In this document: piece by piece, positions 1-27,983 of the stretch | Layout of the letters: each line of letters begins with the position of its first letter | Position numbering within the stretch: the stretch's first letter is position 1 | From: a virus | Strand: one strand, 5' to 3' | DNA: 31,138 bases | IMG/VR virus record: IMGVR_UViG_3300022756_000064 | Span: 1 to 31,138 of that record | Program-made: the position numbers and the translations under genes | Notes under the pieces: generated by a model | What the model was told of the DNA's origin: nothing | The model's database searches: none | The model's input: only the letters and a program-made list of their open reading frames with translations

Positions 1-1
1 T

Positions 2-14953: not shown

Positions 14954-14982
14954 GTGACAGCGGAAAGCAGTCCGGCTATAAA
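14954..14982 (+). promoter_or_regulatory. GACAGCG hairpin element, copy 1, with promoter-like spacing
   Basis: GTGACA (14954-14959) and TATAAA (14977-14982) are separated by exactly 17 bases, a good sigma-70-like promoter. The spacer overlaps the imperfect palindrome GACAGCGGAAAGCAGTC (14956-14972). It lies 15 bases before the ATG at 14988. Of the six intergenic copies this one has the best -10 box. Confidence 0.5.
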
Positions 14983-14987
14983 GCGAC

Positions 14988-15215
14988 ATGGGCGCTGATC
15001 AACAGACGTGGGACTATGGCGTGAAGTTCACCGGCAAGAAAAGCAAGCCGTTGACGCCGCTGGAGCGGGCGCACGACCACGACCTGAAGCTCGACAGCCG
15101 GGACAAGCGTTGGCGGTGCGCGTGCGGCTACGCGCTGGGCGACGGGCGCGAGAAGTTTCTGGCGCGATGCCCGTTGTTGGGAGTCAATAATCCGGAACCG
15201 CAGCCAAGCCGTTAG
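14988..15215 (+). CDS. Small Cys-containing hypothetical protein
   Basis: I do not recognise this 75-residue protein. It begins MGADQQTWDYGVKFTGKKSK, has an acidic/basic middle (ERAHDHDLKLDSRDKRW), then RCACGYALGDGREKFLARCP, a C-x-C...C arrangement that might be half of a metal-binding knuckle. It ends with a proline-rich tail. Codon third positions are rich in G/C, as in neighbouring real genes, and the frame at 15008 looks like a shadow. It follows hairpin element copy 1 and precedes copy 2, so it may be a single-gene unit. No Shine-Dalgarno sequence is evident. Confidence 0.6.
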   Translation: MGADQQTWDYGVKFTGKKSKPLTPLERAHDHDLKLDSRDKRWRCACGYALGDGREKFLARCPLLGVNNPEPQPSR

Positions 15216-15227
15216 ATTTTTGTTTAC

Positions 15228-15244
15228 GACAGCGTTTCGCAGTC
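15228..15244 (+). promoter_or_regulatory. GACAGCG hairpin element, copy 2
   Basis: GACAGCGTTTCGCAGTC forms a 6-bp stem with one A-A mismatch and a 5-base loop. It sits 16 bases before ATG 15261 and 23 bases before the tRNA-like sequence. Its flank (CGTATAACATCGGGGCAATG) resembles that of copy 5 (CGTGGTAAGCGCGAGAACATG). Confidence 0.6.
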
Positions 15245-15260
15245 GTATAACATCGGGGCA

Positions 15261-15470
15261 ATGATGAAGCTGGGTGGAGAAGTGGCAAGGCGTGAGCCTC
15301 ATAAACTCAAAACCGCGGGTTCGATTCCCGCCCCTGCAATCCACCTTTGCCAAGGCTACGGCGGACAGGCCATTTTCGACGAAGCCGAAGAGCACCGTCG
15401 CGATCTTGAATACGAAAGCGTGCGCGATTGGTACAGCCTCTACGAGCCACAGAATGAGGATGAGCAATGA
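15261..15470 (+). CDS. Doubtful small gene overlapping the tRNA-like sequence
   Basis: A 69-residue frame opens at ATG 15261, 16 bases after hairpin copy 2, and ends in an ATGA overlap with the next microgene. Its first ~27 residues are translations of the tRNA-like sequence (AGSIPAPAI), and the next ~9 come from a repeat (CQGYGGQAI at 15343-15370). Only the tail (DEAEEHRRDLEYESVRDWYS and a few more residues) looks like ordinary protein. Either a short real gene has been fused upstream to a tRNA relic and a repeat, or it is not expressed as written. I do not recognise the family. Confidence 0.3.
   Translation: MMKLGGEVARREPHKLKTAGSIPAPAIHLCQGYGGQAIFDEAEEHRRDLEYESVRDWYSLYEPQNEDEQ
15268..15339 (+). 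tRNA. Degraded tRNA-Met(CAT)-like sequence
   Basis: The 3' half has true tRNA geometry: anticodon loop CTCATAA (CAT at 15300-15302), a 5-base variable region, a perfect T stem GCGGG/CCCGC around TTCGATT (15320-15326), and discriminator A at 15339. The anticodon stem has 4 of 5 pairs and the acceptor stem 5 of 7. The D loop keeps A14, G18G19 and A21 but its stem pairs only once. No CCA follows directly. It may be an inactive relic, a divergent phage tRNA, or a tRNA fragment left by recombination. Translations of this stretch (GSIPAPAI) are the usual artefact of tRNA T arms. Confidence 0.45.
15343..15370 (+). repeat. Dispersed repeat, CTTTGCCAAGGCTACGGCGG type
   Basis: This copy directly follows the tRNA-like sequence. 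Related hairpin copies with TTGCC(A)AGGCTTCGCAGGA lie upstream of the glycosyltransferase start (25063-25098) and the capsid start (29400-29423). Confidence 0.6.
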
Positions 15471-15559
15471 CCTGGCATCAAGGCATGGTCCTCCTTCAAC
15501 TGCTGACCCTCGTGGGAGTGGTGATGTGCGCGTGTCTCATTTCCAGCATCCGACGATGA
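15467..15559 (+). CDS. Single-helix membrane microprotein
   Basis: This 30-residue gene (ATG 15467, TGA 15557-15559) is coupled by ATGA to the preceding frame. After MTWHQG it has one hydrophobic helix (MVLLQLLTLVGVVMCACLIS), then SIRR at the end, consistent with a single membrane span with a positive cytoplasmic tail. It could be a spanin-like, lysis-regulating or host-membrane peptide. No family is recognised. It is one of several tiny hydrophobic genes in this window. Confidence 0.5.
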   Translation: MTWHQGMVLLQLLTLVGVVMCACLISSIRR

Positions 15560-15568
15560 AAGTTGTAA

Positions 15569-15748
15569 ATGCCGATTGATCCTTATTTCACCAGTGGGCA
15601 CAAGGCGGAAATAATTCGGCCTACGGACAGGTATCTGGCTCGTGTGCGGTATCGGTCGAGCAGGTTTTCTAAGGATCATCCGAGTAGGAAAGCAACCACG
15701 GATTTCACGGATGGCACGGATAAGAAAGAGACCCCATCCGTGGGTTAG
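15569..15748 (+). CDS. Small hypothetical protein with a repeat-encoded tail
   Basis: A 59-residue frame from ATG 15569 to TAG 15746-15748. The first ~42 residues (PIDPYFTSGHKAEIIRPTDR, then a basic Arg/Ser stretch) look like a small basic protein with no family I recognise. The last ~17 residues, starting TTDFTDGTDKKE, are the translation of an ACCACGGAT-type repeat (15698-15727). The original stop has apparently been lost or displaced by the repeat insertion. The same peptide style appears in the giant protein (TTDNTDTEKK). The methyltransferase start follows 9 bases after the stop. Confidence 0.45.
   Translation: MPIDPYFTSGHKAEIIRPTDRYLARVRYRSSRFSKDHPSRKATTDFTDGTDKKETPSVG
15698..15727 (+). 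repeat. ACCACGGAT-type dispersed repeat
   Basis: Three ACGGAT units (CCACGGATTTCACGGATGGC and on) form the 3' end of the small gene 15569-15748 and run to just before the methyltransferase gene. Confidence 0.75.
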
Positions 15749-15757
15749 TGGGCTACT

Positions 15758-16507
15758 TTGAATGAGCTACATCTATTTGCAGGAGCAGGGGGAGGAATCC
15801 TTGGCGGAATCCTTCTCGGACATACCTGCGTGTGTGCTGTCGAGATTGAACCTTATTGCCGACAGGTATTACTCCAACGGCAACGGGACGGAATCTTGCC
15901 AAAGTTCCCGATCTGGGATGATGTCCGAACTTTCGATGGAAAACCGTGGCGAGGGAAAGTCGATGTCGTCTGCGGTGGCTTCCCCTGCCAAGACATCAGC
16001 GAGGCTGGCACGCGACGAGGAATATGTGGCCATCGAAGCTCCCTATGGATCGAAATGGCGCGTATTGTCCGAGAAATTAAACCGCGTTTCGTGTTCATCG
16101 AAAACAGCCGGAGAATTATTCAGTCAGGAATGGGAAGAGTTCTCAGCGACTTGGCCCAAATGGGGTATGATGCGCGCTGGGGTCTTGTGGGAGCATCCAG
16201 CGCCGGTGCTCCGCAAGGGCGGGAAAGGTTCTGGATGGTGGCCGACTCCAACGGCTTCGGATTCGATCCGCTGCCGGAAATGGCCGGAGTGGTTGGCTCG
16301 CCATCGGGACAAGCAACATTCACATGGAACGGGAGGAGCGTCGGGTATCTTCGAGGTCGCAGCCAGCGAGTTTTCCCGGCTACCGAAAGTGACTTTCTCG
16401 GAGTGGCTGAACGGCATCCCAGAGAAATGGTTGAACCATTCCGAGCCTCTGGAAATCTACAAGTTCCGGCAGTGGTTAAACTCGCTTGGGAGACACTAGC
16501 AGCATGA
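15758..16507 (+). CDS. DNA (cytosine-5-)-methyltransferase
   Basis: The 249-residue product transfers a methyl group from S-adenosylmethionine to C5 of cytosine. Motif I is FAGAGGG (7-13), motif IV GGFPCQDIS with catalytic Cys77, motif VI ENS (115-117; usually ENV), motif VIII QGRERFW (153-159), and the motif IX/X-like GNLQVPAVV sits near residue 232. All core motifs are in order and it is likely active. It is short: the target-recognition zone (~165-228) is small and unlike typical ones. The start is TTG at 15758, since the nearby ATG at 15762 opens another frame that is itself well preserved. It ends in an ATGA overlap with the next gene. Probable role: protecting phage DNA from host restriction. 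Confidence 0.92.
   Translation: MNELHLFAGAGGGILGGILLGHTCVCAVEIEPYCRQVLLQRQRDGILPKFPIWDDVRTFDGKPWRGKVDVVCGGFPCQDISEAGTRRGICGHRSSLWIEMARIVREIKPRFVFIENSRRIIQSGMGRVLSDLAQMGYDARWGLVGASSAGAPQGRERFWMVADSNGFGFDPLPEMAGVVGSPSGQATFTWNGRSVGYLRGRSQRVFPATESDFLGVAERHPREMVEPFRASGNLQVPAVVKLAWETLAA
15762..16499 (+). CDS. Overlapping +1-frame gene nested in the cytosine methyltransferase
   Basis: A 245-residue frame runs from ATG 15762 to TAG 16497-16499, wholly inside the methyltransferase gene. Its middle and end carry a pattern I associate with a phage protein family found beside methyltransferases: a WRVLSEKLNRVSCSSKTAG stretch, FSATWPKWGMMRAGVLWEHP, GWWPTPTASDS, then TFSEWLNGIPEKWL and KFRQWL at the C-terminus (compare 'WPrsGmmrnG', 'PTPTasd' and 'WvEWLMGfPiGWT'). 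Function is unknown. TWPKWGMMRA is the +1 reading of the methyltransferase's DLAQMGYDAR, so the two families may be related by overprinting. It has the better start codon. Expression is unproven. Confidence 0.6.
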   Translation: MSYIYLQEQGEESLAESFSDIPACVLSRLNLIADRYYSNGNGTESCQSSRSGMMSELSMENRGEGKSMSSAVASPAKTSARLARDEEYVAIEAPYGSKWRVLSEKLNRVSCSSKTAGELFSQEWEEFSATWPKWGMMRAGVLWEHPAPVLRKGGKGSGWWPTPTASDSIRCRKWPEWLARHRDKQHSHGTGGASGIFEVAASEFSRLPKVTFSEWLNGIPEKWLNHSEPLEIYKFRQWLNSLGRH

Positions 16508-16791
16508 AGAAAAAAATTGTCGCGCCGGTTTATCCGAAATTTATCGGGCCTGATGGCGCTGGGGTGACTGCGGTCCAGGCGGAACTTGATTACGAAGGGC
16601 GCAAGGCGCTTGGCCGGTTTTGTAATAGGATTGTGCAAAAGACGTTTTCGAACCAGGGAACGTTTGTGTCCACGCCGGAGGGCGACGTGCAGGTGAACAC
16701 TGGCGATTGGGTGATTAAGACCGGGGACGGGTTTCGGGTGGAAGGCGATCCGGTTTTTCGGGAGCACTATGAGGAAGTGACCGCGGAATGA
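16504..16791 (+). CDS. Conserved-looking small phage protein
   Basis: This 95-residue gene starts at ATG 16504, overlapping the methyltransferase stop (ATGA); an upstream alternative at 16486 is less likely. The product begins MKKKIVAPVYPKFIGPDGAG, contains a basic helix (GRKALGRFCNRIVQKTF), and ends with GDWVIKTGDGFRVEGDPVF and REHYEEV. The last part resembles a small beta domain seen in many phage hypothetical proteins ('GDWvi..gdg......p..F...Y'). Role unknown. It is followed by another ATGA coupling at 16788. Confidence 0.7.
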   Translation: MKKKIVAPVYPKFIGPDGAGVTAVQAELDYEGRKALGRFCNRIVQKTFSNQGTFVSTPEGDVQVNTGDWVIKTGDGFRVEGDPVFREHYEEVTAE

Positions 16792-17147
16792 CGATGACAC
16801 CTGAAGCCCAACGAATAGCAATCGCGGAAGCGTGCCGCATTTCTCAAATCCGCACGAGCGGTAGATGGGAAGTTACAGACCCGCCAGAAAACCCTCGCAT
16901 CCTTGTCGGTATGAACCAATCTAGAATCGTTGCTGTCCCCGACTACCTAAACGACCTCAATGCCATGCACGAAGCGGAGAAGATATTCGTGACTCACGGA
17001 AATCCACATCGAGTTGCCTATAAACACGCACTCATGGACGTGGCTGGTGCGGACGATTGGTCTTTAATTCACGCCACCGCTGCTCAACGCGCAGAAGCCT
17101 TCCTGCGAACACTTGGACTGTGGAAAGATAGCCCACACGCGGAATGA
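16788..17147 (+). CDS. Phage ABA-sandwich-like protein
   Basis: A 119-residue product with AVPDYLNDLNAMHEAEKIF in the middle and ATAAQRAEAFLRTLGLWKD near the C-terminus. This combination (YL-NDLNAmheAE ... TAAqRAeAfL-tlglW) is typical of the phage ABA sandwich domain, small proteins of unknown role in phage early or middle regions. It starts by ATGA overlap with the previous gene and ends by ATGA overlap with the RusA-like gene, so the three are probably translated together. No catalytic motif is evident. Confidence 0.75.
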   Translation: MTMTPEAQRIAIAEACRISQIRTSGRWEVTDPPENPRILVGMNQSRIVAVPDYLNDLNAMHEAEKIFVTHGNPHRVAYKHALMDVAGADDWSLIHATAAQRAEAFLRTLGLWKDSPHAE

Positions 17148-17533
17148 CGATGACTTTATCTCTGGATGAAAAACGCCTCCGAGCCATGTTCCCAAGAGCA
17201 AGCGCCGATTTTATTAAAGCCAACAATCCGGTTGGTGCTGCACGGGTATCTAACGCCGTCGTTAAACGCGATGCACCACAAGCATTGGACGGTGGCGTAT
17301 CGGCAGAAGGAAACGGCAAGGCGCGCGCTCGTGTGCGCATTACACGATTCGCTTGCCGCTTGCTTGACGAAGACAACCTCAGTGGAGGCGTCAAGCCGTT
17401 ACTCGACAGCATTAAGCAGGCTGGTCTTATCGAAGACGATTCGCCGGAGTGCATCGAATTGTGTGTGCGCCAGGAGAAAGTGACTAACAAGGTGCATGAG
17501 CGGACGGAAGTGGAGATTGAGTGGGATGAATAA
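17144..17533 (+). CDS. RusA-like Holliday junction resolvase with an internal frame anomaly
   Basis: The C-terminal half of this 129-residue frame (VRITRFACRLLDEDNLSGG and on) has the RusA acidic core: DEDN (75-78), then KPLLDSIKQAGLIEDDSPE (DD 98-99). RusA enzymes cut Holliday junctions and branched replication intermediates. The expected RusA N-terminal strand and helix (RLVLHGYLTPSLNAMHHKHW, AYRQKETARRALV) is instead in the +1 frame at about 17217-17335. The start region (LRAMFPRASADFIKANN) reads well in the main frame. Thus the product looks like main frame, +1 frame, main frame. This could be two compensating indels (real or sequencing errors, perhaps at the GCGCGCGC run near 17321) or recoding. 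As written the enzyme probably lacks part of its fold. Confidence 0.65.
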   Translation: MTMTLSLDEKRLRAMFPRASADFIKANNPVGAARVSNAVVKRDAPQALDGGVSAEGNGKARARVRITRFACRLLDEDNLSGGVKPLLDSIKQAGLIEDDSPECIELCVRQEKVTNKVHERTEVEIEWDE

Positions 17534-17795
17534 GAAGGCAAATACCGTTTGTATAGAGTGTGGCCACGAAATGAAACTCAAGTATGAGGACGTGTGGGGC
17601 AAAATCGTGCGCTGCACATCCTGCACTGCAGTAATCTTAAACGGCCTGCATCTGCCACCGCCGAAATATCCTACTGAAGCGGAGAGACGGCGGAAGCTGA
17701 AGCTTGGGGTGCCGTTTATTAGCCGGCGCGAACTGCTCGAGACTGCGCGGGCTTTGAGTGATCGCGATGATGAAATGCAGGCTTATGACGATTGA
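17526..17795 (+). CDS. Small zinc-ribbon protein
   Basis: The 89-residue product starts at ATG 17526, overlapping the resolvase gene by 8 bases. Two Cys pairs, VCIECG (Cys9, Cys12) and VRCTSC (about residues 31 and 34), form a likely zinc ribbon of the kind that reads IVRCPxCxAxI in many small proteins. The rest is charged and helical (PTEAERRRKLKLGVPFISRR, then LLETARALSDRDDE). The role could be DNA or RNA binding or recruitment of a partner. Its end overlaps the next gene's start by 11 bases. Confidence 0.7.
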   Translation: MNKKANTVCIECGHEMKLKYEDVWGKIVRCTSCTAVILNGLHLPPPKYPTEAERRRKLKLGVPFISRRELLETARALSDRDDEMQAYDD

Positions 17796-18030
17796 AACGC
17801 ACACACAAACCGAAAACGAAACGACTAGCAGCTTTCAGAAAGGCTACTTCAACGTCGTGGCTGGCATGGCGTGCATTTTAATTTCGATAATAAACATCGT
17901 TCAAGACAAAGCACCTGAATGGATGGTGCTGGGGGTTTTGGCTGGCCTATTCAGCATCTTGGCCGCGCCAGTAATTAGACGCGCGATAGCTCAACAACTC
18001 CGGGTGATCGCGAATTGGTTAAACTGCTAA
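17785..18030 (+). CDS. Two-helix membrane protein, holin-like
   Basis: An 81-residue product starting at ATG 17785, chosen because it overlaps the preceding stop; starts at 17758 and 17773 are also possible. After a polar N-terminus (TIETHTQTENETTSS) come two membrane segments, YFNVVAGMACILISIINIV (~21-40) and MVLGVLAGLFSILAAPVI (~48-65), then a basic amphipathic tail (RRAIAQQLRVIANWL). Holins and membrane-associated phage proteins share this layout, but no specific family can be named. It directly precedes the portal-like gene. Confidence 0.6.
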   Translation: MTIETHTQTENETTSSFQKGYFNVVAGMACILISIINIVQDKAPEWMVLGVLAGLFSILAAPVIRRAIAQQLRVIANWLNC

Positions 18031-18032
18031 CA

Positions 18033-20414
18033 ATGGCTACTCAAAACGATAAATCGCAGACGCAACAGTTCGTGGATCGGTTGCCGGAAACGCCACAGGA
18101 CGAGGAGCAGGCTAATAAGCCGCGGATGCCGTTCAAGACTTCGTATGTGCTTGATCGCCTTCAGGAAGATGAATTGTGCCGGTATGTGTCGGACGCGGTG
18201 GAGCAGATGTCGAAACAGCTCGGGCGCGATGATGTGCTCGATGACGCGAGCGCGGGCAGCGGTGCGTGGGGCCAGGGCGTTGCGCCGGGGAAGATCCGGA
18301 AACGCGGCGGCGCTTCCAAGGTTGAAAGTTGGATGGGGAAACGGGCGCGATACACTGCGCGTTACGAGAATAATGTGGATGATCGGGTTGAACCGAAAAC
18401 GCTTTTTGAGCACTCGAATCTTACGGCGTCGTTGTCGCAGCGGATTGTACGACAGATGGTGGCTCGGGCTGTGGCGTTCTTTTTCGGGCAACCGGATGAC
18501 ACTGATTGGTTCACCACTGAAGCGGTGGGCGAAGAGGACCAGGTACTGGCGGACAAGATTAAGAAACATTCCAGGTGGAAAGTGGACCAGTGCCAATCGA
18601 AAAAGACTTTGGTCAACTCATTTGAGTATGCCTTTGTGCGCGGCGAGGCGGTGGTGAAACCGACGCATCAACAGCGGTTCCAGATTTACAAGCGGACTTC
18701 GACGATTTTGGTGGACGCGCAAGGTCAGCCGGTGCTCGATGCGAACGGAGATTACATTGTGCAGGGAGACGCGTTTGTGGATGAAATGGCTCCAGCGGAG
18801 CCGGACCAACTTCCAACGTCCAACGCTCAACTCTCAACGCCAAATGAAGAGGCTCAGGGGATAACGCCAGATGTTGAAATGGGAGAGCCTCCGGTTCTCT
18901 TTGGCAGCGGGATGGGAATGGTAAACGAAGGCGGGATTCCGAACGTCAGTCCTCAGTCCTCGGTCATCGGTCCTCCGCCTGCTCAGCCTACTGAGCGACA
19001 GGTGCTTAAGCGCGACGGGGTGACGGTGCTGCCGGAAGTGCCGATATGGCAGCAGCAGGAGATCGCCCGGAAACTGATCAAGTTCGAAGGGCCGGATACG
19101 TCGCTGGTGTATTACAAGGATTTTTTGTGCGGGCTCGCGGAACCGGATATTCAGACTGCGCCGATCATTTGTCATCTCTACGACATGGATCTGATGCGGG
19201 TGGCGCAGATGTTTTCGGGCCAATTCGAGGAAGGCGACGGCGGTATAGCTGATTTTGCGGCGGCGGTGCAACGCTTAAAAGACCTGGCAGCGAACACGAA
19301 TCAGCCAAAAGCGGCTGCGAAAAAGCCGAGGCGCGAGAAAAAGGAACAGGAAACGGACGCGCCTGATGGAGTGGCGGTCAGCGAATTTGCGGAGTGCTGG
19401 TTGACTTACAGTAAAGACGGCGACGGGATGAACGACGAGATACTGGTGATTCTCGATCGCAGAAATAAGGCGCCGATTTATTACGAATACGCGGCGAACG
19501 TGACGGTGCGCGGTGATCGCCCGTTTTACGTGGTTCGTCCAATGAACGTGGACGGTCGCTGGTGGGGCATGGGCGGGATGGAGTATTTCGATTCCGAACA
19601 GGAACCGATAGATCTGATGGTGAACCGTCACAATTTCGCGACTGGCAAGAGTGGCCGGGTAACGTTCTGGCGTCCGTATAACACGCTGGAAGGCGACGCG
19701 AACCCGAACCTGATATTGAACGATGGGGGCACCTACACGCCAAAGCCCGGAATGAAAGATGAAGACGTGCTTTCCTACGTCACGCTGCCGTATGACAGCG
19801 AGCGGTTTGAGTTTCTTCTCAATTTTTACATGCAACTAGAGCAGACCAAGAGCGGGGTGCTCAATAGCGCGGACCAGGAAATGAGCGGGCTCCCGAGCAA
19901 CCAGCTTGCGACCGGGATCAACGAGATACGCGATAGCGGGCAGGAACTGTTTTCTCTGATGTTAATGGAACTTTTCGCTTCGGTAAAAGCGATCTTGCTG
20001 GCGACGATTGACATTATCTACGCCAACATGAACAAGACCGAAGTGTTCAGTTATTTCAACGGGGAAGCGAACGAGATTTTGCAGTTGACCCCGGATGAAG
20101 TGCGCGATCTGACGTTGAACGTGGCGTTGTCGTTGACCAGAAGCCAAAAGAGTAAAGCGGTGGAGATGGGTCAAAACGCCACGGGTTTGATTGGATGGTT
20201 TTATGGGTTGCCGCCGGAGTTGCAGTTGCGCGTGGCGCAATTTGCCAGGAACCAGCTAAAGGCGTTCGGCGTGCCACAGGCGGATAAGGTGATTGAGCCG
20301 GTGCCGCCGATGGTGCCGCCCGATGGGGGAATGAACGGCAGCGTAAAAGACGAGGCGTCTCGCGCGGCTGAAAGCGTGGGTGTCGGGCGTGTGAGGGCTG
20401 TTCCGGCGATATGA
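18033..20414 (+). CDS. Portal-like protein
   Basis: The 793-residue product starts at ATG 18033; a TTG at 18015 is an unlikely alternative. Its size, acidic/basic helical layout and the core segment GDRPFYVVRPMNVDGRWWGM and GGMEYFDSEQEPIDLMVN match phage portal proteins, whose central part often reads 'PF...g.wyG.G....l...Q..ln.l.n'. The portal forms the ring through which DNA is packaged and ejected and docks terminase. Residues ~255-330 are a non-conserved insertion containing two dispersed repeats (LPTSNAQLSTPNEEAQ and VSPQSSVIGPPPAQP). The C-terminus is disordered and Pro-rich. Position before scaffold and capsid genes fits the usual phage order. The stop overlaps the next gene (ATGA). 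No terminase gene is in the window. Confidence 0.75.
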   Translation: MATQNDKSQTQQFVDRLPETPQDEEQANKPRMPFKTSYVLDRLQEDELCRYVSDAVEQMSKQLGRDDVLDDASAGSGAWGQGVAPGKIRKRGGASKVESWMGKRARYTARYENNVDDRVEPKTLFEHSNLTASLSQRIVRQMVARAVAFFFGQPDDTDWFTTEAVGEEDQVLADKIKKHSRWKVDQCQSKKTLVNSFEYAFVRGEAVVKPTHQQRFQIYKRTSTILVDAQGQPVLDANGDYIVQGDAFVDEMAPAEPDQLPTSNAQLSTPNEEAQGITPDVEMGEPPVLFGSGMGMVNEGGIPNVSPQSSVIGPPPAQPTERQVLKRDGVTVLPEVPIWQQQEIARKLIKFEGPDTSLVYYKDFLCGLAEPDIQTAPIICHLYDMDLMRVAQMFSGQFEEGDGGIADFAAAVQRLKDLAANTNQPKAAAKKPRREKKEQETDAPDGVAVSEFAECWLTYSKDGDGMNDEILVILDRRNKAPIYYEYAANVTVRGDRPFYVVRPMNVDGRWWGMGGMEYFDSEQEPIDLMVNRHNFATGKSGRVTFWRPYNTLEGDANPNLILNDGGTYTPKPGMKDEDVLSYVTLPYDSERFEFLLNFYMQLEQTKSGVLNSADQEMSGLPSNQLATGINEIRDSGQELFSLMLMELFASVKAILLATIDIIYANMNKTEVFSYFNGEANEILQLTPDEVRDLTLNVALSLTRSQKSKAVEMGQNATGLIGWFYGLPPELQLRVAQFARNQLKAFGVPQADKVIEPVPPMVPPDGGMNGSVKDEASRAAESVGVGRVRAVPAI
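18809..18841 (+). repeat. In-frame CCAACGCTCAA-type repeat in the portal-like gene
   Basis: ACTTCCAACGTCCAACGCTC and following units read LPTSNAQLSTPNEE, in the same translated frame (NAQ) as the copies at 10468 and 28371. Confidence 0.75.
18947..18974 (+). repeat. In-frame CAGTCCTCAGTCCTCGG-type repeat in the portal-like gene
   Basis: Short GTCCTCAGTCCTCGGTCATC units read VSPQSSVIGPPP. It is the reverse-complement type of the 3583-3612 repeat and lies ~105 bases after another repeat in the same insertion. Confidence 0.6.
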
Positions 20415-20929
20415 ATCTCACAATTCGTGTTGCGTATGCCGATCCGCCTTACATCGGACAAGCGAGGAAGCATTACAGCCACGATCCCAACTGTGCAGAA
20501 GTTGACCACGCCGAACTGATTGAGCGACTGAACCAATATGATGCTTGGGCGCTCTCGCTCAGCTCGCCCTCATTAAAGGAAGTGCTTGCGCTATGTCCAG
20601 ATGATGTGCGCGTCGGAGCGTGGGTTAAACCCTTTTGCGCATTCAAAGCGAACGTAAACCCAGCCTACGCTTGGGAGCCGGTGATATTCCGTGGCGGAAG
20701 AAAGCTAACCCGAGAACAGGATACGGTTCGAGACTGGGTTAGCGAAGTCATCACGCTCAAAAAAGGACTGACGGGCGTTAAGCCAGAGAGGTTCTGCTAT
20801 TGGATTTTTGAGTTTCTTGGAATGGTTCCAGGAGACCAACTCGATGATTTATACCCCGGCTCGGGCGCGGTCACTCGTGCGTGGCTTTCCTATTGCGACA
20901 CTCCTCGCCTGAGCTTGCAAGTAGCATGA
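20411..20929 (+). CDS. DPPY-type DNA methyltransferase (adenine-N6 or cytosine-N4)
   Basis: The 172-residue product has the catalytic motif ADPPY at residues 10-14, right at the N-terminus, and the S-adenosylmethionine motif DLYPGSGAVTRAW at ~146-158 near the C-terminus. This permuted order (motif IV before motif I) is seen in beta-class and related amino-methyltransferases. Between them lie KPFCAFKANVNPAYAWEP and PERFCYWIFEFLGMVPGDQL, the latter typical of phage members. It probably methylates an exocyclic amino group in phage DNA. Its start overlaps the portal stop (ATGA), an odd place for a modification gene, implying late co-expression. Confidence 0.88.
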   Translation: MNLTIRVAYADPPYIGQARKHYSHDPNCAEVDHAELIERLNQYDAWALSLSSPSLKEVLALCPDDVRVGAWVKPFCAFKANVNPAYAWEPVIFRGGRKLTREQDTVRDWVSEVITLKKGLTGVKPERFCYWIFEFLGMVPGDQLDDLYPGSGAVTRAWLSYCDTPRLSLQVA

Positions 20930-20936
20930 AAATCTG

Positions 20937-21218
20937 ATGACTCCGGAAGAGGCCAAAGAGCAGAGCACCAACAAGCAGGTGCTTGAGGCCACGGAAACGC
21001 TGAAGCGTAACAAGGCGTTTACGGGATATTTCCTTGGCCGACTCAAATCGAAGATCGACAAGTTGAAGCAATCGATTCTGTATAACGACAAGCTGACTGC
21101 GGAACAGATGCGCGACGCGCGTGTGCAACTGCGGACCTATGAGGAAATCCAGAAGCTGGTGGACAAGGATGAAGCAGCGGCCCGGAAAGGGCTGGGGATT
21201 AAGGATGGGGACGAGTAA
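20937..21218 (+). CDS. Small coiled-coil protein next to the portal
   Basis: A 93-residue, highly charged helical protein (TPEEAKEQSTNKQVLEATET, FLGRLKSKIDKLKQSILYND, RDARVQLRTYEEIQKLVDKD). Small helical proteins just after portal genes are often head-assembly or structural partners, but no family is recognised. It is the last plus-strand gene before the inverted cassette and ends 44 bases from the end of the convergent gene. Codon use is like its neighbours. Confidence 0.65.
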   Translation: MTPEEAKEQSTNKQVLEATETLKRNKAFTGYFLGRLKSKIDKLKQSILYNDKLTAEQMRDARVQLRTYEEIQKLVDKDEAAARKGLGIKDGDE

Positions 21219-21224
21219 GAGAGC

Positions 21225-21258
21225 GAAAAACGTCGAACGCTGAACGCCGAACATCCAA
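21225..21258 (+). repeat. CCAACGCTCAA-type repeat at the convergent junction
   Basis: AACGTCGAACGCTGAACGCC and following units fill almost the whole 44-base gap between the two convergent genes. No terminator hairpin with a T run is visible. A direct-orientation relative (26733-26766) lies at the other border of the minus-strand cassette. Confidence 0.75.
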
Positions 21259-21262
21259 TGTT

Positions 21263-23022: not shown

Positions 23023-23699
23023 TACGCGCAGCCTTCCCCATCACCGCACTTGGTAGCGCCGCACTCAGCAACGCAAACGGCGATCCACTTTTGATTGCCG
23101 TCCGATGAATCGAAACCCCAGATCCAGTTTTTGTCTTCGTCGAGTCCTGTGGTGGGAAGCACTTCGAATACTATGTCGCCGCAGATTTCGTTGGTCGGGG
23201 TGACAACCGGTGTGGCTCCGGAGCTATCAACTTTTACGTGGCCTATTGTTTTGTAGGCAATGCCACCGGCGTTGTCTGGCGTGGCTGCGCCGTTGTTGAG
23301 CGAGACGCTGGTAATGGTTCCAGTGGATTGGTCTAGTGTGCATTCAGCCCAGATTTCGTCGCCATCGGCTACTTCTAACTGATAAGTGTCGCCGCTAGGC
23401 ATTCCGCTGGGGTCGATGCCGTCGCTGTTGGGATCGTAAACTACGCCGTCGAGGATGAGCACCAGCGCGGTGCCTGGTTCGCTGGCATCGGAGAGACGGA
23501 AGGAGAAACGAACGCCATCTGCCGGATCAGCCCTGCCTGCGCGATCAGCGTCAACTGCCCATACTTTGCCGTCTGCGCCGACGATTCGCGCGGTCCTTGG
23601 CGATTTACTGGCCGGAACGTGGTCGGCGGCCCTGTGGATTTGTTGCAAGCCGCGAATGTGCGGCGGCGCATGTGACCAATTTGAGGGTTGCCAGGGCAT
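23022..23699 (-). CDS. Probable virion surface protein, beta-rich
   Basis: ATG 23699 is preferred: AAAAAGG lies 9 bases before it, whereas the upstream GTG at 23720 falls inside a repeat. The 225-residue product begins MPWQPSNWSHAPPHIRGLQQ, a basic N-terminus, followed by beta-rich Gly/Asp/Ser/Thr-rich sequence (GDTYQLEVADGDEIWAECTL, DQSTGTITSVSL) and ends with a Cys-containing tail (CVAECGATKCGDGEGC). No catalytic motif. The layout suggests a fibre, decoration or tail-associated protein. Its stop overlaps the next start (TAATG), so the two are coupled. Confidence 0.6.
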   Translation of the reverse strand: MPWQPSNWSHAPPHIRGLQQIHRAADHVPASKSPRTARIVGADGKVWAVDADRAGRADPADGVRFSFRLSDASEPGTALVLILDGVVYDPNSDGIDPSGMPSGDTYQLEVADGDEIWAECTLDQSTGTITSVSLNNGAATPDNAGGIAYKTIGHVKVDSSGATPVVTPTNEICGDIVFEVLPTTGLDEDKNWIWGFDSSDGNQKWIAVCVAECGATKCGDGEGCA

Positions 23700-23717
23700 T
23701 TTAGGGAACCTTTTTAA

Positions 23718-23765
23718 CACGAATGGACACTAATTTACACGAATAGCTGATTTCCCGGATGGCAC
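23718..23765 (-). repeat. Dispersed ACGAATGGACAC / ACGGATGGCACGG repeat at a gene boundary
   Basis: Both motif types sit side by side. On the minus strand the repeat codes the C-terminus (SVPSGKSAIRVN) and TAG stop of gene 23730-23969 and the upstream leader of gene 23022-23699. Confidence 0.8.
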
Positions 23766-23969
23766 GGATTTTGGTTTAGGAACACCGAGTAGGCTGTTTT
23801 GTTGGATAGGGATCGCTTCTGGATGCTCACGCCGATCAACAATATTTCCGTTCGACAGACACCCGCCAAAACCAGCTTTGACTACCTCGCGGATCTTACA
23901 CAAAGCATCCACCTTGGGTTGATCTTCGGGTCTGATCGCCTTCAGAGATTCGTGTTTATTCGTGTCCAT
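23730..23969 (-). CDS. Small phage protein whose start and stop lie in repeats
   Basis: The 79-residue product has a central part (VDALCKIREVVKAGFGGCLS, NGNIVDRREHPEAIPIQQNS, LLGVPKPK) that looks conserved; I recall similar 'GGCxxNGxIVDRRexPeAvPIpaNslLGVPxP' proteins in phages but no function. The first eight residues (MDTNKHES) and about the last twelve are translated from two copies of an ACGAATGGACAC-type repeat. Start ATG 23969 lies 14 bases inside the upstream glycosyltransferase gene, so coupling is likely. The core may bind or bridge structural proteins; this is a guess. Confidence 0.6.
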   Translation of the reverse strand: MDTNKHESLKAIRPEDQPKVDALCKIREVVKAGFGGCLSNGNIVDRREHPEAIPIQQNSLLGVPKPKSVPSGKSAIRVN

Positions 23970-23977
23970 TCGTGGTT
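23945..23977 (-). repeat. ACCACGAATGGACACGAATA repeat spanning a gene junction
   Basis: On the minus strand this one repeat codes the last six residues (TTNGHE) and the TAA stop of the glycosyltransferase and, in another frame, the ATG and first codons (MDTNKHE) of the next gene. Confidence 0.85.
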
Positions 23978-25062
23978 TTCTTTAAGAGGTCTGCCCACCA
24001 AGGCCAGCAGGCATCGGGGTTGCCGTGGCCTGTGGTGACGAGCTGCGCGTAAGCCTGGCTGGCGATGGCGCGCCGCATGTTTGGGTAAAAGGCCAGTTCG
24101 CTGGCGCGGAAAGCGGCTTCATCGGGTGAATCGACCAGAAAACCGGTTTCTTTGTCGGTGATCAGTTCTTTGGCGCCGCCGCGGTTATCGGCTATGACCA
24201 CTACGCCGGCAGCCTGCGCTTCGAGCATAATGCGACCCAAAGCTTCTTCCCATTGGTAATCGCACACGTGCACAAGCACATGGCTACGGGCGTAAAGCTC
24301 CGACAGCGTTTGGCTGTCGTGTATGTGCTGGTGCAACGTGACGTTGAGTTCGTTGTGCCATTTACAGGAATTATCGGTTGCCGTTGGGTCGCCTACTTTT
24401 GCGGCGGCTTCCGGGCCGAACCCGGCAATTTCGATCTGGACGCTGGCGCCCGCGGGCGCGGTGACACCGCAAAACATGCGCCACGTGTCGGGATGCCATT
24501 TATCGGGGTCGTCCCGGCAGATTTTCAGGGCGCGAAATGTTTTGTCGTCGCGCTCGGTTCTGAAACGCAGTGGCAGATAGCGGCTTTTGGTGTTGATGAA
24601 AGCTTTGTAACCTGAGCGGGCTTTAACGGCTTTATGAGCGCGCCGGGCGATGATGGGGCCGAGTTTGTCTGCCAACGCGCGGCTTTGAAAAAAAAACTCG
24701 TCGATTAAGCCTTCCCGGTGCGCGGCGATCTCGTCGTCGGTGGCGTAGTGCATACAATCGGAGTAAACGAAATAACCGGGGCGATCGTTATTTTCCCGGA
24801 TGAGCGGGAACAGGCGGACGCCTTCACCGAAAGACATGAGGACCTGGCACTCTTTGAACATGCCCGGTGTGTACTGAACCAGTGTTACGCCAAGTTTGTC
24901 CCGGAGATAATCGGCAGCGGGGTTGCCGTGGTCAATGATCGGATCGCCCGGCGGCACGATCATGCGCACAGGGACTTTGCGCGAGCGCAATAGCTCGATG
25001 GCGCCTAATATCTCGGTGCCGCAGCCGCCGCATTGGTGGACGATGCCGAAGAAGTTGATCAT
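23956..25062 (-). CDS. GT-B glycosyltransferase (GT4-like)
   Basis: The 368-residue product (ATG 25062) begins MINFFGIVHQCGGCGTEILG, a Rossmann-like start with a Gly-rich loop. The C-terminal domain has EEALGRIMLEAQAAGVVVIA at ~272-291, then DNRGGAKELITDKETGFLVD, the classic donor-nucleotide site (E-x7-E) of group 1 / GT4 glycosyltransferases. It should transfer a sugar from a nucleotide sugar. A longer product from TTG 25137 is possible, but its extra 25 residues (including LRPAKPWQSR) come from a repeat. It lies just downstream of the Ser-rich repeat gene, the obvious candidate acceptor; DNA glucosylation is an alternative. An intragenic copy of the GACAGCG hairpin lies at 24302-24318. Confidence 0.85.
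   Translation of the reverse strand: MINFFGIVHQCGGCGTEILGAIELLRSRKVPVRMIVPPGDPIIDHGNPAADYLRDKLGVTLVQYTPGMFKECQVLMSFGEGVRLFPLIRENNDRPGYFVYSDCMHYATDDEIAAHREGLIDEFFFQSRALADKLGPIIARRAHKAVKARSGYKAFINTKSRYLPLRFRTERDDKTFRALKICRDDPDKWHPDTWRMFCGVTAPAGASVQIEIAGFGPEAAAKVGDPTATDNSCKWHNELNVTLHQHIHDSQTLSELYARSHVLVHVCDYQWEEALGRIMLEAQAAGVVVIADNRGGAKELITDKETGFLVDSPDEAAFRASELAFYPNMRRAIASQAYAQLVTTGHGNPDACWPWWADLLKKTTNGHE
24302..24318. repeat. Intragenic copy of the GACAGCG hairpin
   Basis: GACAGCGTTTGGCTGTC, followed by GTGTATG, differs by one base from copy 6 (GACAGCGTTTCGCTGTC then GTGATATG). On the minus strand it codes DSQTLS in the glycosyltransferase. Unlike the other copies it precedes no gene in its plus-strand orientation. 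Confidence 0.6.
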
Positions 25063-25098
25063 CCTGCTTTGCCAAGGCTTCGCAGGACGAAGGAGATC
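25063..25098 (-). repeat. Hairpin repeat abutting the glycosyltransferase start codon
   Basis: On the minus strand TCCTGC...GCAGGA form a 6-bp stem with GCC/GGC inside, and the final A of GCAGGA is the A of the ATG at 25062. A similar hairpin precedes the capsid gene (29402-29423). It could hide or replace a ribosome-binding site; no other clear one is present. Confidence 0.6.
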
Positions 25099-25117
25099 GT
25101 CCAATGTTGAATTAAGA

Positions 25118-25843
25118 TCATGTGGGAACGCCTTCAAAGAACAGGCCGCCGGCTACGGGGATTTCCATTTGGAAGTCTACGGACACGTCTTCGTAGCGTG
25201 TTGAAACTTCCGGGGCAGGATTTTCGGTGGTAGTGGAAGTGCGGCTGCCGTGCGTGGTGCTGGTGGTGCGGGTCGGATCGGTGTGGGTGGTTTGCCTGCT
25301 ACTGGAACCGCTTTCAGAGGCTGAGCCGCTGCTAGAAGTGGACGTGGAATGGGAACCACTGCGACTGCCGGAACTGGATCGGCTTGAACTGGTGCTGCTA
25401 GAATGCGTGCCGCTGCGACTAGAGGACGCACTGCGACTGCTCGATGTGCTGGCGCTATGCGTTCCGCTACGCGAACCGGTGCCACTACGCGACGACGATG
25501 TGCTTGCGCTGTGCGTCCCGCTACGCGAACCTGTTCCGCTGCGACTGCTCGACGTACTGGCGCTGTGTGTGCCACTGCGTGAGCCGGTGCCACTACGCGA
25601 TGACGATGTGCTGGCACTATGCGTCCCGCTGCGGCTTGAACTGGTGCTGCGACTGCCTGACGTGCTGGCGCTGTGCGTGGTAGCGCGGCTGGTGCTTCCG
25701 CTGCGGCTGCTGGACGTGCTACGGGTGCCGCTGCGGCTACCGGTGGCTGAGCGCGTAGAGGATTGGCTTGTCGAATGGCTAGATGAACTGTTTTCCGATG
25801 TGCCGTGCTCAGTTCTGCGTTGGTATAGACGGTAATCAGCCAT
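25118..25843 (-). CDS. Serine-rich repeat protein (probable surface protein, possibly glycosylated)
   Basis: The 241-residue product has a short N-terminus (MADYRLYQRRTEHG), a Ser/Thr/Arg/Gly-rich body and a C-terminal ~55 residues that look folded (EVSTRYEDVSVDFQMEIPVA, GGLFFEGVPT). Residues 55-180 are seven 18-residue units near GTHSASTSSSRSGTGSRS. There is no signal peptide or LPxTG anchor, unlike bacterial serine-rich adhesins. It is coupled (TAATG) to the acidic Ser-rich gene upstream and followed by a glycosyltransferase gene, so it may be a glycosylated fibre or capsid decoration. A long antisense frame over the repeat is a composition artefact. Confidence 0.7.
   Translation of the reverse strand: MADYRLYQRRTEHGTSENSSSSHSTSQSSTRSATGSRSGTRSTSSSRSGSTSRATTHSASTSGSRSTSSSRSGTHSASTSSSRSGTGSRSGTHSASTSSSRSGTGSRSGTHSASTSSSRSGTGSRSGTHSASTSSSRSASSSRSGTHSSSTSSSRSSSGSRSGSHSTSTSSSGSASESGSSSRQTTHTDPTRTTSTTHGSRTSTTTENPAPEVSTRYEDVSVDFQMEIPVAGGLFFEGVPT
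25304..25681 (-). repeat. Tandem 54-bp repeat, seven units
   Basis: Seven consecutive 54-base units encode 18-residue blocks. The middle three or four are nearly identical in protein and the outer ones diverge (GSHSTSTSSSGSASESGS at the C-terminal edge). Slippage or recombination could change copy number. Confidence 0.85.
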
Positions 25844-26664
25844 TATAGGGGTGGTTCCTCGTAATAAAGGGTTTCGACGTTAGCGCCGCCCGTAACATGA
25901 TAGGTTACCTGGTCGCCGGCGGACGAACCGCTTTCGGACGACGATTCATCGTGCGTCTCTGAATCCTCGCTGGTGCTGGTCTCGCTTGAGCTCTGGGTTT
26001 CGCCGCCGCCGTCGCCACCGGCGGTTTCAGAGTTTTCTGCGCCTGTAGAATTGTCAGCGGATTGCTCACCGCCGCTGGAAGCGCCTTCGTCGCTGGATTG
26101 GTTGCTTTCAGCGGATTCTTCGCCGCCGCTGGAAGCACCCTCGTCGCTGGATTGGTTGCTTTCAGCCGATTGCTCGCCTCCGCTGGACGCGCCTTCATCG
26201 CTGGATTGGTTAGTTTCGCTGGATTGCTCGCCGCCGGCGGTAGCTGAGTTATCGATGCCACCGCTTTGTTCGATGGAAGAATCGCCGCCTGCAGCGGATC
26301 CCGATTCGACGCCGGCACTGGCCTCGCTGCTTTGGTCGGTGCCGGTGTTGATGCCGTTATCAGTTGAGTTACGGGTGGAAGCGGTCACACCGGATTCGAC
26401 ACTGGTGGAAACGACGCCTTCGCGGACTTCGTAAACGGTGGAAGGATCGTCAACGGTGACGCGGACAATGGGGCCGGAGCGGGACGTGGAACTGATGCGG
26501 GTAAGATCGTCTTTGCGAATGATAGCTTCGCCGGAGATGCGAATGGTGGCAGGCTCGAGGACTTGCAGAATGTTATCGTCCCGCGTTTTGCGCAGGCCCA
26601 CGCGTGTTTTATAGCAAAGCTGCGCGATAAAATCGGGCAGATCATTTAGATGAATCTTTGCCAC
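25843..26664 (-). CDS. Acidic Ser/Glu/Gly-rich repeat protein with an N-terminal folded domain
   Basis: The 273-residue product starts at GTG 26664. Residues 1-95 form a compact-looking domain (HLNDLPDFIAQLCYKTRVGL, PATIRISGEAIIRKDDLTRI, IVRVTVDDPSTVYEVREG). Residues ~100-250 are low-complexity Ser/Glu/Gly/Asn with three near-identical 18-residue units (NQSSDEGASSGGEQSAES) at 152-205. The end (QVTYHVTGGANVETLYYEEP) looks structured. The N-terminal part could attach to the virion and the acidic tract act as a flexible arm. It is the first gene of the minus cassette and is coupled to the Arg/Ser-rich repeat gene, whose opposite charge is notable. Confidence 0.65.
   Translation of the reverse strand: MAKIHLNDLPDFIAQLCYKTRVGLRKTRDDNILQVLEPATIRISGEAIIRKDDLTRISSTSRSGPIVRVTVDDPSTVYEVREGVVSTSVESGVTASTRNSTDNGINTGTDQSSEASAGVESGSAAGGDSSIEQSGGIDNSATAGGEQSSETNQSSDEGASSGGEQSAESNQSSDEGASSGGEESAESNQSSDEGASSGGEQSADNSTGAENSETAGGDGGGETQSSSETSTSEDSETHDESSSESGSSAGDQVTYHVTGGANVETLYYEEPPL
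26050..26211 (-). repeat. Tandem 54-bp repeat, three units
   Basis: Three 54-base units encode NQSSDEGASSGGEQSAES and close variants. The period equals that of the unrelated tandem repeat in the adjacent gene. Confidence 0.85.
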
Positions 26665-26823
26665 CTTGGGAAGTGAGCGTAGTTTGACAGCGGAGCGCAG
26701 TCAATAGAGAATGGAAAGGCTAGGAATGAAGAAAACGCTCAAACGCCGAACGTCCAACGCTCAATTTGAGAAAGATACTATGCTCTTGACAGCGGTTAGC
26801 TGTCGTGAGAAACAGCTTTGCTA
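26665..26823. promoter_or_regulatory. Divergent intergenic region with two GACAGCG hairpins and a repeat
   Basis: It separates the minus cassette from the plus-strand head genes. Plus strand: TTGACA at 26684-26689 with hairpin GACAGCGGAGCGCAGTC (26686-26702), and TTGACA at 26786-26791 with perfect hairpin GACAGCGGTTAGCTGTC (26788-26804). Between them is a CCAACGCTCAA-type repeat (26733-26766). Minus strand: TTGACT, 17 bases, TACGCT is a weak promoter candidate for the cassette. -10 boxes on the plus strand are poor. Confidence 0.5.
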
Positions 26824-26824
26824 A
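26711..26824 (+). CDS. Possible 37-residue leader peptide gene
   Basis: ATG 26711 opens a frame ending in TAA at 26822-26824, which overlaps the ATG of the next gene (TAATG). The product (MERLGMKKTLKRRTSNAQFE and on, ending CREKQLC) is largely translated from the CCAACGCTCAA-type repeat and hairpin copy 4. It lies 8 bases after hairpin copy 3. It may be only a coupling leader, or chance. No function can be assigned. Confidence 0.25.
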   Translation: MERLGMKKTLKRRTSNAQFEKDTMLLTAVSCREKQLC

Positions 26825-27219
26825 TGAAAGCGTTTCCGCGGTCGAACAGGATTTTTCGGCACGCGTTTGCGTTTGCGTTTGATGATGCGCCTAGCGTCTG
26901 GCTGGGGGTTGGTTACACCCTGGCTTCGCACAAGATTTCGTTGAACACCAACGATGCGACAAGTGATAAAACGCTGCCGCAGTTGACGGACGCCAAGGCT
27001 AACGCAACCACGGGCGACATTCGGACAGTGGCGTTTGCGATAGCGGAAGCGTTGTTTCAGGCGTGGCTGGCACAGGGAGCCGGTGGGCAGCCACGAAACA
27101 TGGTTATTCGCCGGAGCGCGAGCAGCGCAGGCACCAACGACACTGTTACCTACACCTACCAGTTGCAGTTCACGCTGGACCCGAGCGGGACGTACACTGT
27201 AGATGATGAGCCGGCGTAA
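26824..27219 (+). CDS. Small hypothetical protein before the head genes
   Basis: The 131-residue product (ATG 26824; a TTG at 26818 is an alternative) begins MKAFPRSNRIFRHAFAFAFD and continues APSVWLGVGYTLASHKISLN, then an Asp/Thr/Asn-rich centre, a helix (RTVAFAIAEALFQAWLAQGA) and a beta-rich end (NDTVTYTYQLQFTLDPSGTY). This mix fits a small phage structural or neck protein, but no family is recognised. Hairpin copy 4 lies 19 bases before the start and no clear Shine-Dalgarno is present. A 14-residue frame (MAEENAERRTLNVE) overlaps its stop and is only translated repeat. Confidence 0.6.
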   Translation: MKAFPRSNRIFRHAFAFAFDDAPSVWLGVGYTLASHKISLNTNDATSDKTLPQLTDAKANATTGDIRTVAFAIAEALFQAWLAQGAGGQPRNMVIRRSASSAGTNDTVTYTYQLQFTLDPSGTYTVDDEPA

Positions 27220-27228
27220 TGGCGGAAG

Positions 27229-27255
27229 AAAACGCCGAACGCCGAACGCTCAATG
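27229..27255 (+). repeat. CCAACGCTCAA-type repeat
   Basis: AAACGCCGAACGCCGAACGC and CTCAATG lie directly after gene 26824-27219, as at 21225 and 26733. Confidence 0.7.
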
Positions 27256-27269
27256 TAGAATAACAGAAA

Positions 27270-27365
27270 ATGACAATAAAAGGGATAGCAATAGCGTTTG
27301 GGGTGATTTTGCTCGTCATTTTCTTTCTTTGTTTTCTTTTCCTTTTTTTGCCTAGTGGATTGTGA
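27270..27365 (+). CDS. Single-helix membrane microprotein
   Basis: This 31-residue gene (ATG 27270, TGA 27363-27365) encodes MTIKGIAIAFGVILLVIFFL followed by a Phe/Leu-rich run and PSGL. It is almost wholly hydrophobic, consistent with one membrane span. The T-rich codons (TTT, CTT) differ from its GC-rich neighbours and are forced by Phe/Leu content. A-rich sequence precedes the start (AACAGAAAATG) with no clear Shine-Dalgarno. Possible lysis or membrane-remodelling peptide; the function is unknown. Confidence 0.45.
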   Translation: MTIKGIAIAFGVILLVIFFLCFLFLFLPSGL

Positions 27366-27406
27366 ACGCAGGCAACTGAGACGGTCGCGCTACCTTAAAC
27401 TTGGCA

Positions 27407-27425
27407 TTGACAGCGTTTCGCAGTC
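27407..27425 (+). promoter_or_regulatory. GACAGCG hairpin element, copy 5
   Basis: TTGACA (27407-27412) runs into GACAGCGTTTCGCAGTC (27409-27425), 17 bases before ATG 27443. The sequence 17 bases after TTGACA (TAAGCG) is a poor -10 box. Confidence 0.55.
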
Positions 27426-27442
27426 GTGGTAAGCGCGAGAAC

Positions 27443-27763
27443 ATGATGAAACATTTGCTTCGCTGGCTGCTGATTCTTTCGATTGTGCCGTTGGTGGCTT
27501 ACGCTGCCACAATTTATGTGGGGCCGCAGACGGACGGTTATCACATCGGGCTACAGTCGCATGACCGTGTGGGATTCCGCGGGGCAAAGCCTGTGGGCAA
27601 ACCGATCATTACCGGTACGGCAACCGCAGACATTATCGCGGCGCTGGCAGCGCAGGGGCTTCTGGCCACGGCCACGCCAACCTCCACGGCCACTGCAACC
27701 TCTACGGCGACCTCAACGGCCACAGCGACCTCAACGGCAACCGCGACTGCGACCGCGCCTTAA
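27443..27763 (+). CDS. Secreted or virion small protein with signal peptide and Ala-Thr repeat tail
   Basis: The 106-residue product starts at ATG 27443 (ATG 27446 also possible; GAGAAC precedes). Residues 1-21 (MMKHLLRWLLILSIVPLVAY then A) form a clear Sec-type signal peptide with an AYA cleavage site. The middle (DRVGFRGAKPVGKPIITGTA, IIAALAAQGLLA) matches a short pattern I recall from small phage head-fibre or head-associated proteins ('vGFfGt.Pv.kP'). The last ~30 residues alternate Ala, Thr and Ser (TPTSTATATSTATS and on) and are coded by an ACGGCNAC-like hexamer repeat. It lies between microprotein genes. Confidence 0.6.
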   Translation: MMKHLLRWLLILSIVPLVAYAATIYVGPQTDGYHIGLQSHDRVGFRGAKPVGKPIITGTATADIIAALAAQGLLATATPTSTATATSTATSTATATSTATATATAP

Positions 27764-27803
27764 CCACGTAAAGGCGCTTGCGCGCCCGCGTGGCAAGGGA
27801 CGC

Positions 27804-27899
27804 ATGTTTGCAGCGATGAAGTGGGTTGGTGACGTTTTTTGGATAGTGCTTGGGATTCTGTCGATCCTATTCATTTTCTACACTTTGCTGTTTTCGTAA
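27804..27899 (+). CDS. Single-helix membrane microprotein
   Basis: This 31-residue gene (ATG 27804) is preceded by AAGGGA four bases upstream, the best ribosome-binding site among the microgenes. The product MFAAMKWVGDVFWIVLGILS continues ILFIFYTLLFS: a short amphipathic start, then one long hydrophobic helix. It is the last gene before the scaffold-like gene. It may be a small lysis or membrane protein; no family is recognised. Confidence 0.5.
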   Translation: MFAAMKWVGDVFWIVLGILSILFIFYTLLFS

Positions 27900-27903
27900 C
27901 ACT

Positions 27904-27916
27904 GCTTCGCTGAAGC
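27904..27916. repeat. Short hairpin GCTTC-GCT-GAAGC
   Basis: A perfect 5-bp stem immediately after the microgene stop, followed by TACGTAGGGG. It resembles the GCTTCGCTGAAGC-type dispersed hairpins and has no T run, so a terminator role is doubtful. Confidence 0.4.
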
Positions 27917-27959
27917 TACGTAGGGGTACCCGCGCTCCTGTCGTTCCTGTTTTTCTTTG

Positions 27960-27978
27960 TTGACAGCGTTTCGCTGTC
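27960..27978 (+). promoter_or_regulatory. GACAGCG hairpin element, copy 6
   Basis: TTGACA (27960-27965) runs into GACAGCGTTTCGCTGTC (27962-27978), a perfect 6-bp stem. The ATG of the scaffold-like gene follows only 5 bases later with no Shine-Dalgarno, so a -10 box at the normal spacing would overlap the start codon. An RNA role is more likely than a promoter here. Confidence 0.6.
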
Positions 27979-27983
27979 GTGAT

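Follow-up and report, generated by a model that had tools for sequence, protein, structure and literature searches.

Known promoter-associated repeats and the present element

The elements called ESAS in cluster K mycobacteriophages consist of putative SigA-like promoters (17-18 nt spacing) together with an imperfect inverted repeat near gene starts; the sequence of the repeat varies by subcluster, and its role is still called unclear (PMC11373665, PMC3203893). The operators and stoperators of L5-type (cluster A) phages are 13-bp asymmetric sites, bound by the phage repressor, which at stoperators halts elongation; they occur at many places genome-wide, both in promoters and in short gaps between genes, and follow the direction of transcription (PMC9283540). 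Here we describe a family of short palindromes in a 31,138-nt stretch of viral DNA (IMG/VR record IMGVR_UViG_3300022756_000064; hereafter the window, G000), which a preliminary description had presented as hairpins preceding six start codons. Sigma70-type leaderless promoters are known in mycobacteria and others. We consider it rather probable (about 0.68) that the hairpin family represents sigma70-type promoters with a built-in palindromic operator, whose transcripts start approximately at the start codon.

The closest known system is ESAS, and the dyad promoter family appears to work like ESAS without being a member of it. Both occur in several copies per temperate phage near gene starts, in one main orientation, and combine -35 and -10 elements with an inverted repeat. 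On the other hand, ESAS arms are given as 15-17 nt long, with a longer variable spacer, beside the 13-bp SAS GGGATAGGAGCCC, whereas 7-nt arms with a 3-nt centre lie inside the -35 and spacer here; the start codon here stands at the expected transcript start, and the phages are unrelated. In the window, GGGATAGGAGCCC has 0 matches at up to 2 mismatches. The L5 stoperators are similar in being oriented sites distributed genome-wide, but the sites described for L5 are asymmetric and of 13 bp, whereas 17-bp dyads are centred on the promoter in the present case, and no such repressor was found. Leaderless sigma70 promoters share the -35, the 17-nt spacer, the -10 and a start codon at the transcript start, and differ from the present ones, which are repeated and carry an embedded dyad family. 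The element was not found in print in the literature searched, which is weak evidence.

A palindrome family at gene starts of two phages

The window is part of a phage genome of ~67 kb. It matches both ends of a second, longer record of this phage (g1, IMGVR_UViG_3300022534_000001, 66,947 b), window 1-8108 corresponding to g1 58840-66947 and window 8142-31138 to g1 1-22997 (both >99.97% identity), and the genome is therefore circular or circularly permuted. The phage encodes an SU10-like portal, a major head protein and a giant protein of 4860 aa. A distant relative, g2 (3300046462_000310, 69,736 b), is 50% identical to g1 in the portal, 54% in the head protein, 64% in a terminase-like protein and 37% in the giant protein. 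No cultured phage related by head protein or portal was found. The phage is of temperate type; integrase-family genes are present in g1 and g2, the g1 match scoring below the Pfam cut-off.

All seven copies reported for the window (14956, 15228, 24302, 26686, 26788, 27409 and 27962) are present on the + strand with zero mismatch to GACAGCGNNNNGCWGTC, against a chance expectation of mean 0 in 100 dinucleotide shuffles; an eighth listed match arises because the palindrome at 27962 is perfect and so matches on the opposite strand as well. With the wider pattern GAC[AT]GCN5GC[AT]GTC, 15 copies are found in g1, all on the + strand, and 13 in g2, all read on the main coding strand (28 in total). As a family, the dyad is carried by these two genomes only; among 16 further records whose head proteins are related, just one (G010, one copy) has an exact copy. 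Copies at random positions had been named beforehand as the outcome that would speak against a role at gene starts, and placement proved non-random: a start lies 15-23 nt 3' of the dyad in 17 of the 28 copies versus 3.6 expected, with a maximum of 10 in 2000 random trials, gene starts being approximate, as taken from open reading frames (ORFs) and a simple codon model. One of these 17 (g1 7086) is accounted for by an ORF lying over a tRNA.

Promoter signals around the palindrome

Since the search pattern dictates the arms, it is the flanks that test the promoter reading. A T precedes GACA in 22/28 copies and TT in 16/28, giving a full TTGACA -35 box. Downstream, A is found at +22 in 18/28 (binomial p 7e-4 in g1 and 6e-3 in g2, for single columns among ~29 tested) and TG at +18/+19 in 10/28. 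By the usual sigma70 rules, with TTGACA as the -35, position +22 is the second base of the -10 hexamer (the -11 A) at a 17-nt spacer, and +18/+19 corresponds to the extended -10. At this spacer, A (18/28) and TA (8/28) exceed their counts at every other spacing from 14 to 21. The conserved A is placed in register with the dyad rather than the ATG: alignment of the copies on the ATG yields no column with more than 6/17 A. All three flanking features are commoner in start-associated copies than in the others: TT in 13/17 versus 3/11 (p 0.014), TG in 9/17 versus 1/11 (p 0.022) and A22 in 14/17 versus 4/11 (p 0.019). In unrelated viral contigs containing the dyad, TT stands before it in 3/96 of the strand-matches listed (the two of g2 itself removed).

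Promoters in relatives lacking the palindrome

The sequence TTGACAGC is present without the 3' arm in phages related by head protein, with TA exactly 17 nt downstream in 21 of the 38 distinct rows, which include many near-duplicate phages (five rows are from G013, G020 and L096); at spacings 12-16 and 18-23, TA follows in only 0-3 of the 38. Examples of the -10 in these relatives are TATAAA, TATGAA, TATAGA and TAATGG. In L019, L018, L024 and L025, 5' of a gene of 369-374 aa, two promoters stand back to back, GCTGTCAA-N14(A/T-rich)-TTGACAGC, and serve a divergent gene pair.

The gene downstream of the seventh copy (window 27999-29318, g1 19858-21177, + strand) has orthologues in the relatives, and TTGAC stands 35-39 nt before its ATG in 17/19 of the rows listed, g1 and g2 included; duplicates with the same upstream sequence had been removed, and each row was tried with several candidate starts, which makes agreement by chance likelier. 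L038 is without TTGAC, and L022 is cut by the contig end near there. The 3' arms of this orthologous promoter are graded, from CGCTGTC (g1, g2) through CGCTGCC (L028 = G010) and CGAGGTC (L018/L025) to TGAGGTC (L019).

A strict search that required a TTGACA-like -35, a 17-nt spacer, a -10 and an ATG or GTG 33-43 nt on, with the reversed sequence as control, gave 12 matches in g1 (control 3), 12 in g2 (2), 12 in G010 (1), 10 in G013 (1), 6 in G008 (1), 4 in G012 (0), 3 in G006 (0), 3 in L019 (2) and 2 in G011 (1), some of these matches falling inside the giant gene. Counts in G018 (4, control 5) and G020 (3, control 3) do not exceed their controls, and these two thus give no signal.

Arm counting revealed no hairpin families at gene starts in the relatives themselves; candidates in L019 turned out to be a collagen-like coding repeat, and those in G018/G020/G021 to be CGTGACG-type short repeats. 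By way of promoter geometry, a separate dyad at the -35, TTGACG-NNN-CGTNA, turned up in G013 (L224-L226), with 7 copies (25925, 28454, 30210, 51106, 36462 and two more) versus 0 in the reversed control; in 5 of the 7, the distance from the first T to an ATG is 35-39 nt. Perfect spacer dyads of unrelated sequence are present in single promoters of G010 and G012.

Promoter geometry, register, conservation in relatives and association with gene starts thus emerge from the comparison of sequences. The suggestion in the preliminary description of a phage-specific promoter is supported in essence, in that the 5' arm serves as the -35 with a -11 A kept in register, and in the relatives a real -10 follows after exactly 17 nt; but the promoter looks like an ordinary sigma70 type to which the palindrome is an addition.

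The palindrome as a putative operator

The consensus of the 17-bp dyad is GACWGCG-WWW-CGCWGTC, overlapping the -35 and spacer. Its central base is A or T in 28/28 copies. AAA and TTT centres, which are one dyad read on opposite strands, are each common, in line with a double-stranded DNA dyad. The 5' half keeps GACA in 27/28, as the -35 requires at this place; the 3' half is not so constrained and can read GCTGTC or GCAGTC. An operator is the best reading of the dyad, which is probably bound by a phage regulator, most likely a repressor; both the binding of a protein and repression through it are what we infer from these features. Copies within genes that are without TT may be isolated binding sites.

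A candidate for the regulator is an antisense protein of 148 aa (g1 33227-33673), 49% identical to that of g2 and among the genes common to g1 and g2 that have no tblastn match in the relatives tested. Two segments resembling ribbon-helix-helix were read by eye in its sequence. It has no convincing sequence match in the PDB, and no further relatives of it were found. A near-copy of the dyad with 2 mismatches inside the 148-aa gene in both phages is explicable by the shared protein sequence.

Predicted leaderless transcripts

A sigma70-type start falls ~7 nt after the -10; the predicted transcript start therefore lies ~16 nt past the dyad, which puts it on the ATG or only a few bases from it. 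With gene starts 15-23 nt past the dyad, leaders would thus be 0-7 nt long, and the transcripts would be leaderless or nearly so. Leaderless mRNAs would explain why Shine-Dalgarno scores in g1 are no better than random (mean -4.3 for hairpin genes, -4.2 for other genes, -4.2 for random positions). The scores differ little in g2 (-4.2 for hairpin genes, -5.1 for other genes, -3.9 for random positions), and the comparison, in which the g2 row 25803 is off by one base and not a start, fails to separate the models.

In the mechanism that we propose, each promoter would consist of a TTGACA -35, formed by the 5' arm and the preceding TT, a 17-nt spacer, and a -10 region keeping the -11 A, sometimes with an upstream TG. 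The 17-bp palindrome would be overlaid on the -35 and spacer, where a phage regulator, likely a repressor, would bind it as operator. Transcription would start ~16 nt past the palindrome, on the start codon or immediately ahead of it, to give a leaderless or nearly leaderless mRNA.

Several observations weigh against this mechanism. The -10 is weak in g1 and g2, with TA in 8/28 and little beyond the -11 A, and the p-values for start association are modest, the flanking columns having been picked among ~29. No start is found at 15-23 nt in 11/28 copies, and one of the 17 start-associated copies (g1 16161) belongs to an antisense ORF. Some copies lie inside genes (16161, antisense; 45966, in DnaB; 50778; and g2 46487), and the sites mostly differ between g1 and g2. 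Furthermore, the structural model of the 148-aa regulator candidate is poor (mean pLDDT 53), too poor to bear out the ribbon-helix-helix reading.

Alternative explanations

It is unlikely that the promoter is read by a phage factor, either the sigma70 r2/r4 domains of the giant protein or an N4-like virion RNA polymerase acting on an extruded DNA hairpin. Sigma70 r2/r4 domains are indeed present in the giant protein, r2 being found in 9/14 records examined; however, in the best segments of this protein g1 is closer to the relatives without the dyad (49-54%) than to g2 (37%), and because of this the sigma domain would also be a weaker binder candidate than the 148-aa protein. In N4, the virion RNA polymerase requires the stem of the promoter hairpin, and the loop is 3 nt long. 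The stem of 7 and loop of 3 found here resemble the N4 geometry, a short stem beside the transcript start (PMC4496689). The two differ in that the -35 and -10 are conserved here where the hairpin is absent, and no such polymerase was found; the search for the RNA_pol family gave no match in 10 records, but its positive control also matched nowhere, so that the search is uninformative.

The preliminary description also offered a leader hairpin, in which the transcribed stem would control translation or stability of the next gene, perhaps via a phage RNA-binding protein. Association with starts and the sense orientation agree with it, and 89.1% of cells are paired across the stems of 21 distinct copies. 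Two stem pairs are changed on both sides, and this covariation exceeds that of shuffled copies (6/500 reach it), although a DNA dyad predicts the same. In 8 of the 21 distinct copies, however, an A.A mismatch replaces an A-T pair, and the loop-closing pair is missing in 8/21; the TT upstream and the -11 A downstream are left unexplained, the relatives keep -35 and -10 without the 3' arm, and one copy precedes a tRNA gene. By the promoter geometry, the stem would lie upstream of the transcript. With these points and the A/T centre, control of translation by a leader is not favoured, and we regard an RNA role as quite improbable.

A mobile or host-derived REP-like palindrome settling near gene starts, to which some copies in genes, the differing sites of a kept sequence in g1 and g2, and other short repeats in g1 might point, is very improbable and unsupported, given that the flanking TT and A22 sit in promoter register and that the strict pattern occurs in only 2 contigs of a genome collection of 84,980 species (~chance, both genomes having counts like those of reversed-pattern controls), a collection from which the host genome may be missing. 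A looser scan of viral sequences gave, among the matches listed, mostly single copies in unrelated contigs; at least 2 copies were found there only in L012, L146 and L152 besides g1 and g2, none with TT.

Individual copies in the window

Among the seven copies, four begin with TTGACA, and only the first has a good -10, as had been noticed, when judged by the E. coli consensus. The distances to the ATG given in the preliminary description are correct for the nearest ATG, which for the copies at 27962 and 26686 is probably not the true start.

Copy 1 (14954-14990, +) has GTGACA as -35 (14954-14959), the dyad at 14956-14972, a TATAAA -10 (14977-14982) and an ATG at 14988. Copy 2 (15222-15267, +; dyad 15228-15244) ends 23 bases 5' of a tRNA-Met (CAT) gene (15268-15339, +). 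It has no TTGACA in register; as read from the sequence, a shifted -10 may be provided by TATAAC at 15246-15251, to which TTTACG stands at a distance of 17 nt on the upstream side. The 69-aa ORF that follows overlaps the tRNA-Met gene and is doubtful. Copy 3 (24302-24318, +) lies, as reported, inside the glycosyltransferase gene, which is on the minus strand, so that the copy is antisense; without a -35 TT or other promoter features, it is possibly an isolated binding site or a chance occurrence.

The remaining copies have the full TTGACA. In copy 4 (26684-26728, +), it occupies 26684-26689, followed by the dyad (26686-26702) and a weak -10, GAGAAT (26707-26712); a short ORF starts at ATG 26711 or at the second in-frame ATG, 26726, which is 23 nt past the dyad. 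Copy 5 (26786-26826, +) comprises TTGACA at 26786-26791, the dyad at 26788-26804, a weak -10, GAAACA (26809-26814), and ATG 26824 of a 131-aa ORF. TTGACA of copy 6 (27407-27445, +) is at 27407-27412, the dyad at 27409-27425, the -10 TAAGCG at 27430-27435, and ATG 27443 opens a 106-aa ORF. Copy 7 (27960-28001, +) has TTGACA at 27960-27965, a perfect dyad at 27962-27978 and the -10 TATGCC at 27983-27988. Its probable start is the in-frame ATG 27999, 20 nt past the dyad, and not the nearer 27984; the g2 orthologue also starts 20 nt past its dyad.

Other features of the phage

The giant protein (window 206-14788, +) contains ddrB-ParB (ParB-like), ResIII/helicase and sigma70 r2/r4 domains, and its aa 1197-1321 match toxin Tas1, a (p)ppApp synthetase (PDB 6ox6, E 5e-11). 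Just 5' of the g1 integrase gene, a stretch like a tRNA 3' end (g1 ~44993-45082, L077) looks like an attP core, and could point to the host. Other short repeats are GCCAAGGCT(A/T)CG stretches (window 15345, 25069, 27904) and AACGCYS heptad runs (window 10460, 21221, 26727, 27223, 28365), of a kind known from Verrucomicrobia genomes and perhaps a host hint. Serine-rich coding repeats of 54 nt are found in two minus-strand genes (window 25200-25830 and 25995-26245).

Implications

In the reading as promoters with a built-in operator, what looked like an RNA hairpin allows the promoters of an uncultured phage group to be mapped from sequence, and provides a parallel of independent origin to ESAS of mycobacteriophages, which are themselves poorly understood. 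The predicted leaderless mRNAs would account for the absent Shine-Dalgarno sequences and correct the start codons. As a more far-reaching and doubtful proposal, this phage group might run a genome-wide regulon of leaderless genes from dyad promoters, the dyad having been switched between lineages (GACAGCG-N3-CGCTGTC in g1/g2, TTGACG-N3-CGTCA in G013) and marking specificity classes of regulator or immunity, each with its own repressor, the candidate for g1/g2 being the 148-aa protein found in these two only. If different dyads do mark different repressors, immunity classes would be readable from metagenomic sequence.

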